Shown: one piece after another, positions 46,515 to 54,709 of the stretch
Numbering within the stretch: position 1 is the first letter of the stretch
How the letters are laid out: each line of letters opens with the position of its first letter
Assembly (NCBI GenBank): GCA_025935195.1
Contig: JAICVS010000011.1
Location: 1-54,709, forward strand
DNA: 54,709 nucleotides
Direction: 5' to 3'
Source: Ktedonobacterales bacterium
GTDB taxonomy: Bacteria > Chloroflexota > Ktedonobacteria > Ktedonobacterales > JADMIN01
Made by a program: the position numbers and the translations under genes
The notes under the pieces: model-generated
The model's input: only the letters and a program-made list of their open reading frames with translations
What the model was told of the DNA's origin: nothing
Databases searched by the model: none

Positions 46515-47654
46515 CTATGCGTGTTGGGTGGGATCGACCTGACTGATACGGCCATAGGGCAGGCGCGGAGCGAAAGCTTCGTTGGATGGGGGCGTGACCT
46601 GCTCGACCTCCGGCGCGATCTCTTCCAGAAGCGTGGCGATGCCTATCAGCCAGTCCACTAATGGCTCGATCTGGCCGCTCTTCGCTGACAGACGAAAGGG
46701 GTTGAAGTGACGGTAGAGGAGGCCACCGGGGGTGAGCGCCACGCTATCACGTCGCGAGCGCAGGTAGCGTTTGCCGCTGACGATCCACTGGGCAAACGGC
46801 CGCATCCAGGAGTCGGAGACGGGCCGGCCATATTGCGGCATGACGTAGAAATTGAGGGAGCCCGCGACTTTGCCTGTCACGGCGTGGGAAGCGAATTCAG
46901 GAGGAACCGGCTTGCGCGAGATGCTGAAACCGGGCAGCGGACGCGGCGAGGTCACGGTCACGTGATACCAGTAGCCTGCGGGACCGTTTGGTCCGTAGTT
47001 GGTGTAGGTGGCGCCACTGACCACACGCACGCTACGGCCACTTCCATAGTATCCCGTCGCCGTCAGCGCCAGTGCGGGCCATCGCGGCATCTCCACCTCC
47101 CAGCCCAGGCGGCGCGCCGTGGCATTCAACGCATGCAGGTGGCCGAGACGCCCAAAGTAGCTGAACGTGAAGAAGGCGAGGGGCGCATCCACGGGCGGGT
47201 TGTCGGCAAGCGCGGTGACGATGGAGAGCAGGCCGGCTGGAAGCGTGACGAGAAAGGAGGAGACAGCCGGGATATTGAGTGCGGCATGCCCATTGTGTTG
47301 AAATGTCGCGAGCCCGATGAGTGTCAGCACAACCGTTGCCGTCTGGAAGAGAAACACCAGGCCATAGCGCCCGGCTACTGGAATGCTGCCGGCGAGCGCG
47401 GTCATGAGGGCGACCAGCGGGATGCTCAGGAGCCAGAGCGGCCCGCCGTGGCGCGTGAACGCCACTAATCCAACGATGCCAGGATAGGCTTCGGAGGTCC
47501 AGAGGAACGCGCTCGCTACGGCTACCCAGACGGCGGAGCCGATGATGATGAGGTAGATGGGAATGCGCCACCACACCTTATGGGTCAGCCGAGTCGAGGT
47601 GCTCTCTATCTGCCCCATGATGATCTGGGTGAGGAGCAACACAAGCGCATGCAT
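46515..47654 (-). CDS. Polytopic membrane protein of unknown function
   Basis: 379 residues. Four hydrophobic helices at about 30-52 (IPIYLIIIGSAVWVAVASAF), 58-90, 95-118 (YGLVFLFQTATVVLTLIGLATF) and 130-150. The soluble C-terminal two thirds (about 150-379) is mixed alpha/beta (RVVSGATYTNYGPNGPAGYWYHVTVTSPRPLPGFSISR). No family recognised. I chose ATG 47654, with CGGGAGAAAG upstream. G+C is lower than in the core genes. It is 104 bp after a TPR protein gene on the same strand; they probably work together. Confidence 0.7.
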   Translation of the reverse strand: MHALVLLLTQIIMGQIESTSTRLTHKVWWRIPIYLIIIGSAVWVAVASAFLWTSEAYPGIVGLVAFTRHGGPLWLLSIPLVALMTALAGSIPVAGRYGLVFLFQTATVVLTLIGLATFQHNGHAALNIPAVSSFLVTLPAGLLSIVTALADNPPVDAPLAFFTFSYFGRLGHLHALNATARRLGWEVEMPRWPALALTATGYYGSGRSVRVVSGATYTNYGPNGPAGYWYHVTVTSPRPLPGFSISRKPVPPEFASHAVTGKVAGSLNFYVMPQYGRPVSDSWMRPFAQWIVSGKRYLRSRRDSVALTPGGLLYRHFNPFRLSAKSGQIEPLVDWLIGIATLLEEIAPEVEQVTPPSNEAFAPRLPYGRISQVDPTQHA

Positions 47655-47758
47655 GCGGCTTTCTCCCGTTCTCGTCGCTCCGCGCGGTGCCGGAAGGCGC
47701 TGGTGCGCCACACATCCGCACATCTGGGCACGTGGGTGACAATCGCGTGGACACGCGC

Positions 47759-48757
47759 CTAGGCGCGTGTCTCCCCTGCCTCGACCACCGACATGCCGAG
47801 GGCCTGTCGCGCTTTATTGTTGACGTTACGGGCATTGCTGAACTCAAAGAAGGCCAGCGCACGGTTGCTCGCTTCGAGGGCATCCTGGTACCGCTGGGCA
47901 GCGAGCAACTGGAGCGAATAGTTGTGCCATGTCCACGCGCTGCCCTCCGGCTGCTCACGGAAGAGCTGCTGATAGGTGGCGATGGCTTCGTCTCGACGCT
48001 TCGTCAACCCATAGAGCTGGGCCAGCCGGTCATAGCCGGAACGCTTGACGAGTGGTGACGGGGCGAGCTCGATCATGCGACGCACGGCTGCTTCATACTG
48101 CTGCGTGGTGCCGTACATGAAGTAATACTTGGATTCGACATCGGGGAAGCGCGGATGATTGGGGTTCAGCCCCTGTATCTTCCGCATGGCATCGTTGGCG
48201 ATGACGCGATACCTGCTGTCGTCCACGCTGGTTGCGACGCGTAGACGCATGATCCAGGCGTCTACCGACACGGGATAGGCTTTGATGGCGGCGGAGGTAT
48301 AGGCGAGCGCGGCGCGCACGCCCTGCGGGACGTGCATGCCTCCCTGGAGGTACGCGAGACGCAGCACAACCGCGGCGGCGCCGCTGAGCGCGAGATCCCG
48401 CGGCAAGTCAACCAGCATGTCCACTATCGGGGGGAGCTTGCGGTAATCGCCCTCAGCTTCCGTAAGCGCATCGAGGGCGGCTTGATAGGTCTGCTCCGCT
48501 TGCCGGCGGTCGGCGCTCGCCTCGCTCCCCCAACGGACCTGGTCGAGGTCGGCGACTTGCATCTCCACGAACGCCTTGTGTTCCGCCAGCTCGGCGGGTG
48601 AAATGCCGCGCAACGCTACCTGCGGCAAGGGATTGACATCGCCGGCGAGCAGCCGCCGGGTCTGGCCTCTGCCAATCCAGAGGAGGATCAAGGTGGCGAT
48701 TCCAAGAACCGCGATCAAAGCGCCCGCACCGACCAACTGCAGCGTATTGGAATCCAT
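47759..48757 (-). CDS. Membrane-anchored TPR protein
   Basis: 332 residues. One N-terminal helix (about 7-28: LVGAGALIAVLGIATLILLWIG) anchors it. The rest is helical with TPR-like repeats (RLAQLYGLTKRRDEAIATYQQLFREQPEGS, HNYSLQLLAAQRYQDALEASNRALAFF). TPRs bind other proteins; the membrane protein encoded downstream is a likely partner. I chose ATG 48757 after AGGGGGCATCGT; the longer frame to 48844 is less likely. Confidence 0.75.
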   Translation of the reverse strand: MDSNTLQLVGAGALIAVLGIATLILLWIGRGQTRRLLAGDVNPLPQVALRGISPAELAEHKAFVEMQVADLDQVRWGSEASADRRQAEQTYQAALDALTEAEGDYRKLPPIVDMLVDLPRDLALSGAAAVVLRLAYLQGGMHVPQGVRAALAYTSAAIKAYPVSVDAWIMRLRVATSVDDSRYRVIANDAMRKIQGLNPNHPRFPDVESKYYFMYGTTQQYEAAVRRMIELAPSPLVKRSGYDRLAQLYGLTKRRDEAIATYQQLFREQPEGSAWTWHNYSLQLLAAQRYQDALEASNRALAFFEFSNARNVNNKARQALGMSVVEAGETRA

Positions 48758-49339
48758 ACGATGCCCCCTGCCAATCTCTCTCTCGTCCACGGTCGCATGC
48801 TGAGTCTCGGAGCGCATTGTATCGGAGACTCGGCAGCCGGTCAATGCCGTGTCCAGGGTGGTTGCTGTCGTTCAGAAGGGTCGCGGCGCGTCCTCCAGCG
48901 CACTGGGATGTGTCCGCCCGCTATCGGCGCACAGGGGAGGCCCAGCATATGACGGATGGCCGCGAGCTCACATTTTCCCCATACAGGTCAATGCGTGAAA
49001 TGGTCTCTCTGTTTACGCTGCTGCTAGGATACGCTCGGCACCGCCGCTGTGGTTTGGATTCCCCGGCGACGTCTTTCCTTGCGCACGAGACGGCGCCGCG
49101 AGATGTGGCGGGAGAGACCGAATCGCTCATGTGTCTTGAAATCCCATCACATGACCTATAGGACGACGCCTGTCCTGTGCAGTTACAAACGACTATGACC
49201 CATATGCACGTCAAATACGTACTACCCTCTTGTACTGCAGTGGGAAAACCCATATGATTCTGTCACGCCGCGAGCGTTGTTCCAGTCGTATCATCAATTG
49301 TTCGTACCGGAGCAATTGTAATCAAGAGAGAGGAACTGT
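48758..49339. other. 582-bp low-G+C spacer before the STAND NTPase gene
   Basis: No gene supported. G+C falls steadily toward the NTPase gene. A 9-bp inverted repeat with one G-T pair, CAATTGTTC-GTACCG-GAGCAATTG (49295-49318), lies 22 bp before the start codon and could be an operator or leader hairpin. CCCATATG occurs twice (49199-49206 and 49249-49256). The region probably carries the promoter, but no convincing -35/-10 pair stands out. Confidence 0.45.
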
Positions 49340-52300
49340 ATGGAGTCGTTGCCAAGCCAGGTAATGGATGTTAGCGGAGTATGCCGCAGCTTTCCCCAGT
49401 TGCCCACTCCATGCGTTGAGAGAACAAATGTACTCGAAACAATCGAAGACATTTTCAAAAGCGGTGCGCAGTTTGTGGCCATAGAGGGCGAAGAAGGTGT
49501 CGGAAAGACGACACTGCTAGCAGAGTTCGCTCTTCGTCACAATTTGAGAACAATTGCCATCTTCGCGCGATCTACGAGCCGCCTAGCTTACGATCCATGG
49601 TACCTACAATTCGACCTGAATAATCAGCTTGAATGGTTAGTACATGGGAGAGAACTTGATCCGCAAGACGAAGTTGATGAGAGTAAGCGCCGTATCCAGA
49701 TAACCTACTTGCAGGGCAAGGCCCGGCGAGAGTCACAGTCATATTATGTGGTCGTCGATGGGCTTGATGAAATACCAGATGGTGAAGACCAACTTCGCGA
49801 GGTCATTCTGGACCTATTGCCACTGGGTATTCCCGGCTACAAGTTCCTCGTCGCTGGGATGCTGGAGAAGCTCCCGCAGGCTGTTCAGCGCACTATGACA
49901 TGTCGTTCCTACCATGTCACAAGATTTAGCCTGGAAGAGACGCTGAAATACTTCGATAGCGCAGGAATCAGCGTTACAACAGAGCAGGCCGAGGAACTGC
50001 GCCACATCTGCCAGGGGCTTCCCGGCCGTTTGGCGAGCGTTATACGTACTCTCGCCACCGGAACAAACATCCAAATATTATTGGATGAGATGCCAACCGA
50101 GATCTCGAAGTTATTGGAGTTCGAGTGGCATGCAGCTATGCACAACTCAAGCGAGCTGCTTATGAGTGTCCTAGCGGTTCTTGCTCATGACCTTTCTCAG
50201 CAGACAGTAACCAGCTTGGCCGAGTTGCATGGCTGCCCGACAGACGACATTATCGTCGCACTGAGTGGAGCGCGATTTGTCAACCTCAGACCGGATGGCG
50301 AGGTGACGTTCGTATCCCGGTCTTTTAAGGAATTTGCTGCGCGAAAGCTGAGCACATGGAAAGGCCGTGTCAATGCTCTCGTTATTGCGCGGCTATCGAG
50401 GATTCCCGAAAGCGATGCTGCCCTAACCCAATTGCCAGCATATCTCGCGCAGGATCGACAGTTCGACAGGCTATTTCAATACCTCTCGCCACAGCACTTT
50501 GTACAACTTGTGGAGCGTAACCAATCTCTTAGGCCTGCAATCAAGACCGCAGAACTCGGGCTTAAGAGTGCTCGTCAGTTGCATCGAGATTCAGAGATCG
50601 TACGGCTATCACTCAATAAGACGCTGTTTCAACAACTTGAAGTATCTAGCGTTGCGCGGGCCGAGATCGAGACCAGGATGGCTCTTCATGACAACAACGG
50701 GGCAATGGCACTCGCGCAAGCCGCGATCTTGAAAGAGGATCGGCTGCACTTACTGGCAATTGTAGCAAAGGGCTATTACTTGCTCAATGAGGAGCCACCT
50801 CAAGAACTACTTGATCAGCTTAGTCAGCTTGCGGATGAGATTGACATCGCAAGTCTTGGAGATCGGGCACTCCACATTGCGCAGGACTTGATATACTCTC
50901 ATCCAGATCAAGCAATTCGAATAGTGGAGGGTGCTGTTCCCCCAGTATCCGGCGAGCGAGGGCTAGATACTGCGCTTGCGGCACTATCCCTCAGATCAGT
51001 AGTAGCCACTGAAGTACTTGGAACGTCGTCCGAGCATGTTGACACAGTCAAGCGGGTCACGGCCAGAATCCGCAATCCGAGGACAAGGGGTTTTGCCGAG
51101 GCTGTAACAGTACTGCTCAATGATGACTCTGCAACTGAGGCAATAGCTCGCGTAAGCGGTCTCAGCTCAACACGAGACCAAATCTTCATTTTGCGTAGAT
51201 GGGCATCGATCAATCGAGAGCGGTCCGACGCCTGGGAGGTAATCGACTTTGCGCTTAAGCGTATCATCGCATCCTCAGACTTTTCCCCGAATGCAGGAGT
51301 GTACAGAGATCTGGCAGAGCCCATTCCATACGTCGCAAGTGAGAGCATTGTGAGACGGCTTGTCGGGCAGTTCGATAGCCAGCGCGATATAATTGAGCAA
51401 CAAGGTCCTACGCAAGATTACATCCGATTACAGCTGAAATTGGGGAAAGCCGAATCGCGCTATGACGCCGGGGCATCGTACAGCCGATTCTTTGAAGTGT
51501 ATGCAAAAGTCGAGAATGTAGAGGATTTGGCAGTCCAAACAGAATGCACCGCATGGCTCGTTGACTTTGCGCTCGACAGTTACAATCGTGAGGTGGGCGA
51601 GAAGCTGCTCAGCGCGAGAGATTGTGAGTTGGTGCAAGACGAATTCTCGCAAAGGCTGTCACGCTTGTTCGACGTTACCGCTGATCACTATAGGGTCACG
51701 CGAGGCATAATTCGCGCTCTGGCACCGGGAGCACGCGACATGGCTTTGAAGGTTGCAGAGTTGCTAAACACAGAAATGCGACGCAACCAAGCCGTACTTG
51801 ATCTGATCGCACTTGTGTCGAGCAACGCGCATTCGGCAGAGGACAGTCGCTTCTTACAGGGTGCATTGAAAGCGCTAACAGACCAAGATACGTCCGACAA
51901 GGCACTATCCATCATCCTCGAACGAGTTGCAGATGCTTCCGAAAGCGCGGATTTTGCTTTGCCGGACTTTGTGCCCTTCCTTGAGCAATGCAAAAACATA
52001 GCCGATTCCGAGGAGAGGTGTCGAGCGTTGCGCTTTGCGTACATCGCTCTTAGAAATAGCATACGCGACGAGAATACAGCTGCGAGGTATCAAAGCTGGG
52101 CCGATGCCCTGCTAAAAAAAATGCAGGTCGCTTGGCAGCAAATTGATGTCGGATGGGATCGAGTTGAGACTGGCTTTCAACAGGCAAGAGCTTTAGCCAA
52201 TATCAACGAGCAGGCGGCTAAGAAGTACCTCGCCTTGGTCGAGGCATGCCGGGAAGAGATGCCTATTGGATCCTGGAATGCCGCCCATGTGTTCGGTATA

Positions 52301-54355
52301 TGTCTGTTGCTAGCGATTCGAGCGTTTGCAGGTCTAGTGCCCGGACGAATCGAATCGCAGACAGAGCTGCTACGCCTGGCGGCGCTGATTGACGCTGTTC
52401 CTTCTAGCGGTCAACGAGCTACTTCATGGGCTCTCGTTGCCATGTTGTGCTATAGCAGGAAACGCGATGATCTGGCCAATCGTATCGTAGCTGAACGTAT
52501 CAAACCGATCTTGGAGGACGTGCAAGGAGGAGCGACTTACCGTCACAGTGTGCTTCGCGCGGCAGCACCTGCGCTCTGGAGGCATCATGCGCAAACCGCG
52601 AAGGAACGCATCGAGCAAATACCAGTGGCAGAGCGGGATGATATTTTCGCCGAGATCGCCTACTTTGTGTTGCATAAGGTTCCACCCGGTGATCAAGGAT
52701 ACGCACGTTTTCGGGAAGACTATGACGTATCTTACGAGGAACTGATCGATCTCTGCGATCTGGCAAATGAAATGCGTCATGATCATACTGTCTACTGGAT
52801 TATCTCCGAGATTTGTTCTGCCATCTTAGCTGGCAAGAGGACTGGGCGACACAACAAAGAGCAGCAACGCACCGTTATTGATCGATTGTGGACTCTAATC
52901 GGTAAGCTACCCGACCTAAACAACATCCGGCATGAGGGCTACAAACTGATCTCGGAGGCACAACTACTTCATGTCGATGCCGCCCGACATAGCGACCGAA
53001 ATGTATGGGTAGATTTGGTTCATCAGGCTCATCTCATACCGAATGCATCAGATCGCGCCTATGTCTTGTCGAATATCGCGCTCACGATGCCGTCTGAGGG
53101 CACAATTCGCCAAGACACGTTAACAGAGGCTGCGAGCATTGTGGCTGCCCTGCCGACCCGTTTAGAACGAGTTGATCGGTATATCACGCTTGCAGAACAG
53201 ATAGTCGGTTCAGATTTCGCCGAGCGATATATTTCACTCGCCAAGCAATATCTTACCTTAGCAATGACGGAGGCTGCGGGCGTAAAGGGCAGGAACTATC
53301 GTGACCAGCAGCGCCGAATCATCGATGTAGCCTATCAATTTGACGAGGGTCTTGCACAGACTTTGGCATCACAGACTAACGATGATCCAGCGAGGCTCAA
53401 AGAGCGGCTCCAACTCAATCAGCTAAGCAAGCATGTTGCTGAACCGCAGCGCGCAAGTCTCGCTGCAGATGGGTCTAACCTGTCCCGGCGGCAGCAAGAG
53501 TTGATATCAGAGGCTGCACAGATAAGCTTGGACAGAATAAATGCTAAGCCGCGGGATTGGATCCGGCTTGAACACATACGTAACGTCATTGACTTTGCGG
53601 CGCGTATGCCGCTCATGAGGTCCTATTCGTTGATGGCATGGGCCATTGAGCATGCGGCATACAGGTTTGCCACAGACACTGAAGCTCGTGCTCGGCTGGC
53701 TCCCTTGTTCGACAGTGCAGTGATCGCAGCGAATCTTGCTCTTGAACTCGGCACTCATGCGGCTAATCGTGCTAGGCGAGCCCAGAACTACTCTCTCGGC
53801 TCCCCTACTACGGCAACGGGCCTGATTCGTGCTGGCGACCGCGATGGCGCCATCCGCTTCATACGCGCCTGGTTTGAAGAGAATGTGCATGAATATGCAA
53901 AGATCGCAGATCCTTATTTTGGTCTCGAAGAACTAAATTGGGTTCGTATTCTTGCTGAATTTGTCCCTGGTTGCCGTGTGCAGATATTAACCAGCAGGAA
54001 GGCACAACAGGACAATGGGGTGCAGACTCCTTGGGAAGATAGCTACAATCTCCATTGGAAGCTTAGGATATCCGAGCAAGAACCGCCTGACACAGAGATT
54101 GTCGTAGCAGGGCGTAAGCCTCGTGGTGATTCACCGATACATGACCGCTTCATCATTACCAAGGGCAGCGGCTTGGCGATCGGCACATCGTTACACGATC
54201 TCGGAATTACAAAAGATGCCAAGATAACAATCTTGTCTGCGGAGGAAGCAGCAGATGTCGAGCGCGACATTGATCAATGCCTGAATTTGCAGTTGCGCAT
54301 GCATCGAGGCGAGAAGATCCAGTACAGCCGGTTTAACTTGCTTGTGGATGAGTGA
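49340..54355 (+). CDS. Giant STAND-type NTPase with helical repeats and C-terminal PLD/MIT_C-like domain
   Basis: 1671 residues. NTPase at the N-terminus: Walker A GEEGVGKTT (50-58), Walker B YYVVVDGLDE (135-144), and YKFLVAGM at the sensor strand, as in NACHT/STAND ATPases. Residues about 290-1500 look all-helical, like TPR-type repeats. The C-terminus (about 1515-1650) has KIADPYFGLEEL, CRVQILTS and HDRFIITKGSGLAIGTSLHDLG (HDR 1601-1603), the layout of PLD-like domains including MIT_C of MITD1; the catalytic Lys of HxK is absent. GAGAGAGGA precedes the ATG. G+C is about 55% in 300 hand-counted bases, well below neighbours, so it is probably transferred. A defence role is inferred; no partner gene is seen. 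Confidence 0.8.
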   Translation: MESLPSQVMDVSGVCRSFPQLPTPCVERTNVLETIEDIFKSGAQFVAIEGEEGVGKTTLLAEFALRHNLRTIAIFARSTSRLAYDPWYLQFDLNNQLEWLVHGRELDPQDEVDESKRRIQITYLQGKARRESQSYYVVVDGLDEIPDGEDQLREVILDLLPLGIPGYKFLVAGMLEKLPQAVQRTMTCRSYHVTRFSLEETLKYFDSAGISVTTEQAEELRHICQGLPGRLASVIRTLATGTNIQILLDEMPTEISKLLEFEWHAAMHNSSELLMSVLAVLAHDLSQQTVTSLAELHGCPTDDIIVALSGARFVNLRPDGEVTFVSRSFKEFAARKLSTWKGRVNALVIARLSRIPESDAALTQLPAYLAQDRQFDRLFQYLSPQHFVQLVERNQSLRPAIKTAELGLKSARQLHRDSEIVRLSLNKTLFQQLEVSSVARAEIETRMALHDNNGAMALAQAAILKEDRLHLLAIVAKGYYLLNEEPPQELLDQLSQLADEIDIASLGDRALHIAQDLIYSHPDQAIRIVEGAVPPVSGERGLDTALAALSLRSVVATEVLGTSSEHVDTVKRVTARIRNPRTRGFAEAVTVLLNDDSATEAIARVSGLSSTRDQIFILRRWASINRERSDAWEVIDFALKRIIASSDFSPNAGVYRDLAEPIPYVASESIVRRLVGQFDSQRDIIEQQGPTQDYIRLQLKLGKAESRYDAGASYSRFFEVYAKVENVEDLAVQTECTAWLVDFALDSYNREVGEKLLSARDCELVQDEFSQRLSRLFDVTADHYRVTRGIIRALAPGARDMALKVAELLNTEMRRNQAVLDLIALVSSNAHSAEDSRFLQGALKALTDQDTSDKALSIILERVADASESADFALPDFVPFLEQCKNIADSEERCRALRFAYIALRNSIRDENTAARYQSWADALLKKMQVAWQQIDVGWDRVETGFQQARALANINEQAAKKYLALVEACREEMPIGSWNAAHVFGICLLLAIRAFAGLVPGRIESQTELLRLAALIDAVPSSGQRATSWALVAMLCYSRKRDDLANRIVAERIKPILEDVQGGATYRHSVLRAAAPALWRHHAQTAKERIEQIPVAERDDIFAEIAYFVLHKVPPGDQGYARFREDYDVSYEELIDLCDLANEMRHDHTVYWIISEICSAILAGKRTGRHNKEQQRTVIDRLWTLIGKLPDLNNIRHEGYKLISEAQLLHVDAARHSDRNVWVDLVHQAHLIPNASDRAYVLSNIALTMPSEGTIRQDTLTEAASIVAALPTRLERVDRYITLAEQIVGSDFAERYISLAKQYLTLAMTEAAGVKGRNYRDQQRRIIDVAYQFDEGLAQTLASQTNDDPARLKERLQLNQLSKHVAEPQRASLAADGSNLSRRQQELISEAAQISLDRINAKPRDWIRLEHIRNVIDFAARMPLMRSYSLMAWAIEHAAYRFATDTEARARLAPLFDSAVIAANLALELGTHAANRARRAQNYSLGSPTTATGLIRAGDRDGAIRFIRAWFEENVHEYAKIADPYFGLEELNWVRILAEFVPGCRVQILTSRKAQQDNGVQTPWEDSYNLHWKLRISEQEPPDTEIVVAGRKPRGDSPIHDRFIITKGSGLAIGTSLHDLGITKDAKITILSAEEAADVERDIDQCLNLQLRMHRGEKIQYSRFNLLVDE

Positions 54356-54709
54356 GGAACGGCACGAGGTGACAGATCGTCCGATCGCCGCCCGCCCGCG
54401 ATCGCGTTCCCATCGCGCGAGTCGTGAGCGGGAACGACCCACGAGCCATCGCGCGCGGCATACGCCATACCCGAAACGACGCGATGCCCCTAAAGCCGGA
54501 TGTCATGGGGCTGCGGGGCATCTGGTGGGAGTGGGGGTGACCGACGGGGCTTGAACCCGCGACCTCCAGATCCACAATCTGGCGGGCGGCGAAATGCGGG
54601 AATATTCGGGCTTCGCTCGGCGTCTGCCCAGGACTTTTCAGCAGTTTGACACTTCCGCACATCTGGTGCTTTCGATGTAAGATAGGGATAGGAAACGTGG
54701 GGCGTCACG
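54356..54709. other. 354-bp end region with tRNA fragment
   Basis: G+C rises again right after the NTPase stop. Apart from the tRNA-His 3' portion (54536-54582) I see no gene. The final 120 bp has no recognisable feature; if an integrated element begins here it continues beyond the window. Confidence 0.4.
54536..54582 (-). tRNA. 3' fragment of tRNA-His (GTG anticodon), truncated at the 5' side
   Basis: On the minus strand: anticodon arm CCAGA-TTGTGGA-TCTGG (anticodon GTG at 54575-54573), variable AGGTC, T arm GCGGG-TTCAAGC-CCCGT, acceptor 3' strand CGGTCAC and C73, the discriminator specific for tRNA-His. No CCA is encoded. The D arm and 5' acceptor strand are missing: the DNA to the right has no match to GGTAGAGC-type D-arm sequence. 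A fragment like this is the usual scar where an integrating element used tRNA-His as its attachment site. Confidence 0.8.

Follow-up and report, generated by a model that had tools for sequence, protein, structure and literature searches.

A Mobile Family of Giant STAND NTPases with a C-Terminal PLD-like Domain: Candidate Single-Gene Immune Proteins of Inverted Domain Order

Results and Discussion

Features of the Locus and Domain Architecture

The DNA analyzed here (54,709 nucleotides from a Ktedonobacterales bacterium, referred to throughout as the window) is one contig of a 277-contig assembly, and carries near its right end a reading frame that is unbroken from ATG to stop and encodes a protein of 1671 amino acids. 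The features of the locus are as follows:

49340..54355, + strand: gene for the 1671-residue STAND NTPase/alpha-solenoid/PLD-like protein (stop codon included; single open frame with full-length homologues)
49412..49954, + strand: STAND/AAA NTPase core, residues 25–205 (sub-threshold Pfam matches, predicted strands, Foldseek matches to Avs3 and 6mfv)
49955..50350, + strand: predicted helical and winged-helix domains, residues 206–337 (AF2 secondary structure)
50351..53770, + strand: long alpha-solenoid, proposed sensor, residues 338–1477 (all-helical in AF2 to residue 1200)
53771..54352, + strand: C-terminal PLD-fold domain, proposed output, residues 1478–1671, ordered from ~1490 (AF2, Foldseek, NF040700)
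54140–54148, + strand: HDR motif, residues 1601–1603
54182–54190, + strand: GTS motif, residues 1615–1617
54540..54588, − strand: partial tRNA-His gene (3′ part with anticodon stem/arm, T arm, and 3′ end), an attachment-site scar

The Walker A motif (GEEGVGKT) occupies residues 50–57, with its lysine at position 56, and the Walker B motif (VVVDGL) residues 137–142. The NTPase is the sole region of the window protein detected by Pfam, with scores slightly under the curated cut-offs for both AAA_16 (2.7e-7, 31.7 bits against a cut-off of 32.6) and NACHT (9.3e-6, 26.0 bits against 26.7). In the AF2 model of residues 1–1200 (pLDDT 83.5, pTM 0.65), the predicted core is five-stranded (residues 45–49, 71–75, 135–140, 167–172, and 188–192), and is followed at residues ~206–336 by helices and a beta hairpin (314–324), which we read from the predicted secondary structure as a winged-helix region; beyond ~336 the model is purely helical as far as residue 1200, where it ends. 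The best PDB match of this segment in Foldseek is Avs3 in complex with phage terminase (3.5e-11), followed by the STAND protein 6mfv (5.4e-9). We note that the global TM-scores of these matches are low (0.17–0.21), as is usual with flexible solenoids, and they therefore back the class of the protein rather than a detailed superposition. A P-loop AAA core with Walker A and B motifs, followed by modelled helical and winged-helix domains, is the arrangement expected of a STAND protein. A preliminary description of the sequence had placed an NTPase at the extreme N-terminus, with Walker A at residue 50, and motifs, Pfam, AF2, and Foldseek agree on a STAND-type core there; the ~1200 helical residues that it put after the NTPase do comprise a long solenoid, but this stretch opens with the predicted helical and winged-helix domains.

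There is no N-terminal effector ahead of the NTPase, as all full-length members of the family described below begin shortly before it (from about residue 25 in the window protein). A PDB sequence search gave no useful match, PADLOC offered neither a specific model for the window protein nor a match to an Avs model, and a whole-protein model was absent from both PADLOC and NCBIfam. The protein resembles Avs3 (AVAST) in its giant size, in the long helical solenoid that comes after a STAND NTPase, and in being mobile and found in defence neighbourhoods, but differs from it in lacking the N-terminal effector and in carrying an extra C-terminal PLD-like domain. An Avs-type solenoid is thus predicted C-terminal to the NTPase, for which we infer a sensing role, and here another domain follows it. 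Bacterial NLR-related (bNACHT) proteins are likewise similar in their NACHT-like NTPase, single-gene organization, and proposed oligomerization switch, whereas the family has its NTPase at the extreme N-terminus and ends in a conserved C-terminal PLD-like domain.

The C-Terminal PLD-like Domain

The C-terminal domain contains DPY at residues 1524–1526, ILTS ending at S1552, HDR, and GTSLHDLG at 1615–1622, and was modelled by AF2 with a pLDDT of 90.9. Its Foldseek matches in the PDB include phospholipase D, NucT (6ehi), and SauUSI (7clg) at E-values of ~1e-5, with further structural matches to PLD3/4, phosphatidylserine synthase, BJ-TSA-9 (FAM83A), TrmBL2, TrmB, and MITD1. The predicted structure accordingly has a PLD fold, in line with the preliminary description, which had recognized a PLD-like domain with these four motifs at the very end of the protein and an HDR form without the lysine of HxK. 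This lysine is Arg in all members of the family. The catalytic PLD motif H-x-K-x4-D-x6-G-S is thus not present in full: the His is retained, the Asp at +7 survives in a single member, and the Gly and Ser of GTS are present in 14 of 14 C-terminal domains, each of which has one H-D-R-x11-G-[TG]-S motif. Since no member has an intact HKD motif, the domain may be a pseudo-enzyme. The replacement of Lys by Arg and the loss of the Asp point to an altered or absent enzymatic activity, and the invariant His-Asp-Arg and Gly-Ser to a working pocket. It is also the most conserved region of the protein, with a mean pairwise identity of 34%, compared to 19–29% in other 100-residue blocks and 21–26% in the solenoid. 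NucT, SauUSI, and other PLD-family nucleases share with it the fold and the single motif per domain, but have H-x-K-x4-D where the family has H-D-R and a variable Asp position.

In sequence, the closest named relative of the domain is the uncharacterized VPA1262_N (NCBIfam NF040700), which is matched by 13 of the 14 C-terminal domains with a best E-value of 2.5e-18; that of the window aligns with positions 320–474 of the model at 24–30 bits, under the family cut-off of 80 bits. The type member of the VPA1262 family (NF040700/NF040699) lies in the genomic island VPaI-6 of Vibrio parahaemolyticus (PMC1464126). Only the PLD-like part is common to the two families, and we saw no sharing of the STAND or solenoid regions. 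Another genome of the phylum contains a compact 238-residue frame (L049) with an HDR...GTSLNGFG PLD-like domain akin to the C-terminal domain (4.7e-10).

The suggestion that the domain is MIT_C-like did not survive comparison with MIT_C itself: Pfam PF16565 was unmatched at E-values up to 10, hhalign gave a probability of 1.3% against a profile of two bacterial MIT_C domains, and hmmsearch scores were at the level of shuffled sequence. MITD1 (2ymb) is the 36th structural match (5.2e-4, 21% identity), and MIT_C shares the PLD fold and the DPY/TS/HDR pattern, yet it has no significant sequence relationship to the domain and carries GRGLD where the family has GTS. Elsewhere, a true MIT_C, itself PLD-like, does follow an AAA+ defence protein, in a fusion to the C-terminal end of BrxL (BrxL_N, BrxL_ATPase; L051, 1588175–1591597).

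A Family Spread over Several Phyla

A tblastn search identified four full-length plasmid relatives, in Aromatoleum, Exiguobacterium, Carnobacterium, and Cytobacillus, and the alignment of these plasmid relatives retrieved 13 more genome loci, in a Deltaproteobacteria MAG, Thermomicrobiaceae, Pantoea, Malikia, Paenibacillus, Flavobacterium, Anaerolineaceae, Enterococcus, Oxalobacteraceae, Gracilibacillus, a Proteobacteria MAG, Peptococcaceae, and an unplaced bin. The window protein alone, used as the query, found no relatives in the genome contigs. The family thus comprises 17 loci beyond the window, in Pseudomonadota, Bacillota, Bacteroidota, and Chloroflexota, with 22–38% identity to the window protein from end to end, and the frame of ~1620–1660 residues is unbroken at 14 of them. 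One copy is cut by a contig end (L011), and in Enterococcus crotali (L014, 3833–8778) and the Proteobacteria MAG (L017, 5609–10586) the gene lies in two frames, through either decay or assembly error. The P-loop glycine, D140, D1524, H1601-D1602-R1603, G1615, and S1617 are invariant in 15 full-length members; such invariant residues, in full-length homologues of the same length from several phyla, exclude chance. In a sample of 400 genomes of the window's own phylum, a full-length member was found in the window's own genome only, the other 44 flagged genomes having short partial matches that lie nearly all inside the NTPase. The phage and viral collections yielded no relatives of the protein, and viral contigs none of its C-terminal domain. 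Our literature search found no description of the family, which is so far uncharacterized, and the retrieved passages of a paper on Tn7 cargo name Gabija without any STAND protein.

The Walker A lysine is replaced by alanine (GxxGxGAT), with the remaining motif conserved, in the members from Aromatoleum (P0002), Pantoea (L008), Oxalobacteraceae (L015), and the Proteobacteria MAG (L017), and the three of these in the gene tree form one fully supported proteobacterial clade. From these sequences, NTP hydrolysis is probably not universal in the family, and the substitution suggests that it may be dispensable in this clade.

Horizontal Transfer and the tRNA-His Scar

The GC content is 51.9% in the gene and 67.8% across the remainder of the window, and at 15 of the 16 other loci measured the gene is likewise richer in AT than the flanking DNA. 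The gene tree is at odds with taxonomy: its nearest partner for the window is the Deltaproteobacteria MAG, and the two Chloroflexota copies are split, one near the window and that of Anaerolineaceae with Bacillota. Gene tree and GC contrast together indicate horizontal transfer, which had been suggested from the low G+C of the gene and the neighbouring tRNA scar in the window and which the mobile-element settings described below also bear out. In a relative (L040), the left neighbours of the gene (46515–47723 and 47759–48844, both on the − strand) have counterparts that lie side by side in conserved order, and similarity to that relative ends at 48573, within the first part of the 47759–48844 gene, so that the foreign DNA probably starts near 48.8 kb.

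The tRNA-His fragment lies to the right of the gene. Six relatives (L053, L054, and L056–L059) have an intact tRNA-His with a 3′ part nearly identical to the fragment in the window, where the 5′ half is replaced and no intact tRNA-His is called. The sequence in place of the 5′ half (54589–54709) runs to the contig end. Such tRNA fragments are remnants of tRNA-targeted integration. By its orientation, the element that made the scar extends rightward past the contig end at 54709, and the gene would therefore lie in a tandem second insertion or an older one. The scar noted in the preliminary description is thus real, but is not by itself proof that the gene arrived with the scar-making element. 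We looked on the left of the gene for a second copy of the fragment, as expected of a complete island, and found none; DNA and pattern searches gave no intact tRNA-His elsewhere in the assembly either, so that the assembly probably lacks the other side of the element.

Neighbourhoods of the Homologues

The vehicles that carry the family include two Tn7-like transposons, one tRNA-Met-flanked element of ~15 kb, and four plasmids. In Gracilibacillus (L016), Gabija lies directly upstream of the gene (GajA 1.6e-233, GajB 3.6e-101) and TniQ, TnsD, TnsC-like, TnsB-like, and TnsA genes downstream, which marks the gene as Tn7-like cargo, and in the Proteobacteria MAG (L017) TniQ, TniB, and TnsB-like genes lie directly downstream. 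The Flavobacterium element (L012, 5790–20877) lies between direct repeats of ~54 bp, within which are 25 bp of the tRNA-Met 3′ end; besides the family gene it carries a tyrosine integrase, DUF3871, AAA_24, and a helicase, and it is followed by two intact tRNA-Met genes. Further neighbours are HsdM, HsdS, and HsdR (type I R-M) directly upstream at L013; PDC-S69, then MrcB_N-AAA_5 and DUF2357-PDDEXK_7 genes (McrBC-like) in Paenibacillus (L010); a Fic protein matching PDC-S04 (1e-94) at L004; a tyrosine integrase with NsnA/PD-T4-2-like DUF262 and HEPN at L003; a KwaB-like gene and CHAT at L005; an integrase upstream at L008; a serine recombinase downstream at L014; and several recombinases on the Aromatoleum plasmid (L002). 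This plasmid also encodes, ~3.4 kb upstream of the family gene, an uncharacterized protein of 1485 residues that is weakly Avs4-like (2.2e-6; L002, 4065–8522). The scanned neighbourhoods of L006, L009, L015, and L018 held no clear defence system, and L007 and L011 adjoin intact tRNA genes, with no tRNA 3′-end repeats detected. Recognized defence genes thus lie within ~10 kb at 6 of the 17 loci (a raw count), and most of the others are on mobile elements. These surroundings are of mobile elements and known defence genes, rather than of housekeeping genes only, and no partner gene is constant across the loci.

Proposed Mechanism and Alternatives

We infer a defence function from this genomic context, against which it counts that non-defence genes are also common cargo of mobile elements. 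The best explanation, to which we assign a probability of about 0.58, is that of a mobile single-gene STAND immune protein of inverted polarity, with the solenoid as the sensor and the C-terminal PLD-like domain as the output. We prefer this domain as the output, since conservation is highest in it and the protein holds no other effector. The solenoid would bind a component of the invader, upon which NTP-dependent oligomerization through the NTPase/winged-helix module would bring the C-terminal domains together. PLD enzymes use two motifs, either in tandem or as a homodimer, as in NucT and SauUSI. With one H-D-R motif per domain, clustering could thus form a composite pocket, which would cleave or grip a phosphodiester substrate (a nucleic acid or a phospholipid), and infection would be halted, probably along with the cell.

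The roles could also be reversed, in that the PLD-like domain of a defence STAND protein senses a nucleic acid, a lipid, or a small ligand, with an output that consists of assembly driven by the NTPase or the recruitment of another protein. This would agree with the order described for STAND/bNACHT proteins, which is effector–NTPase–sensor with the sensor C-terminal (PMC12169576), as well as with the loss of the catalytic Lys and Asp and with the ligand binding of PLD-like folds in TrmB and TrmBL2. We consider it unlikely, however, as no part of the protein is more conserved than the PLD-like domain, whereas a sensor would evolve fast, the analogy with Avs3 makes the solenoid the obvious sensor, and there is neither another candidate effector in the protein nor a constant partner gene at the loci. 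The degenerate HKD motif, the structural match to MITD1, and the DPY...LITS...HDR pattern common to bacterial MIT_C domains would also suit a non-catalytic membrane anchor as in MITD1, through which activation puts the NTPase oligomer at the membrane. Given that there is no MIT_C sequence relationship, that the MITD1 match is weaker than those to NucT or PLD, and that an anchor does not readily explain the invariant H-D-R and G-S pocket, this role appears distinctly improbable.

STAND proteins include regulators, and all well-resolved contexts of the family are mobile elements; it is therefore conceivable that the protein serves not defence but the element itself, as a regulator or maintenance protein (a MalT-like STAND regulator, or a party to inter-element conflict). 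Nevertheless, the vehicles are unrelated (Tn7-like transposons, tyrosine and serine recombinase elements, and plasmids) and the protein is thus not element-specific, no DNA-binding output domain was found in it, and known defence genes recur as neighbours, all of which makes this reading very unlikely in our estimation.

Within the preferred reading of an immune protein with a C-terminal output, we offer more tentatively, and with rather less than even confidence, the fuller proposal of a widespread, undescribed single-gene STAND family of inverted order, in which clustering pairs H-D-R domains into a composite active site and the Lys-less proteobacterial clade may switch without ATP hydrolysis. 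If the inverted polarity is true, a STAND switch can operate an output domain located at the C-terminus, against the effector–NTPase–sensor order described to date, and a function would be suggested for the HDR-type PLD-like domain common to the unexplained VPA1262 family. Present in at least four phyla, on Tn7-like transposons, integrative elements, and plasmids, the family provides a ready single-gene set for phage-challenge assays.
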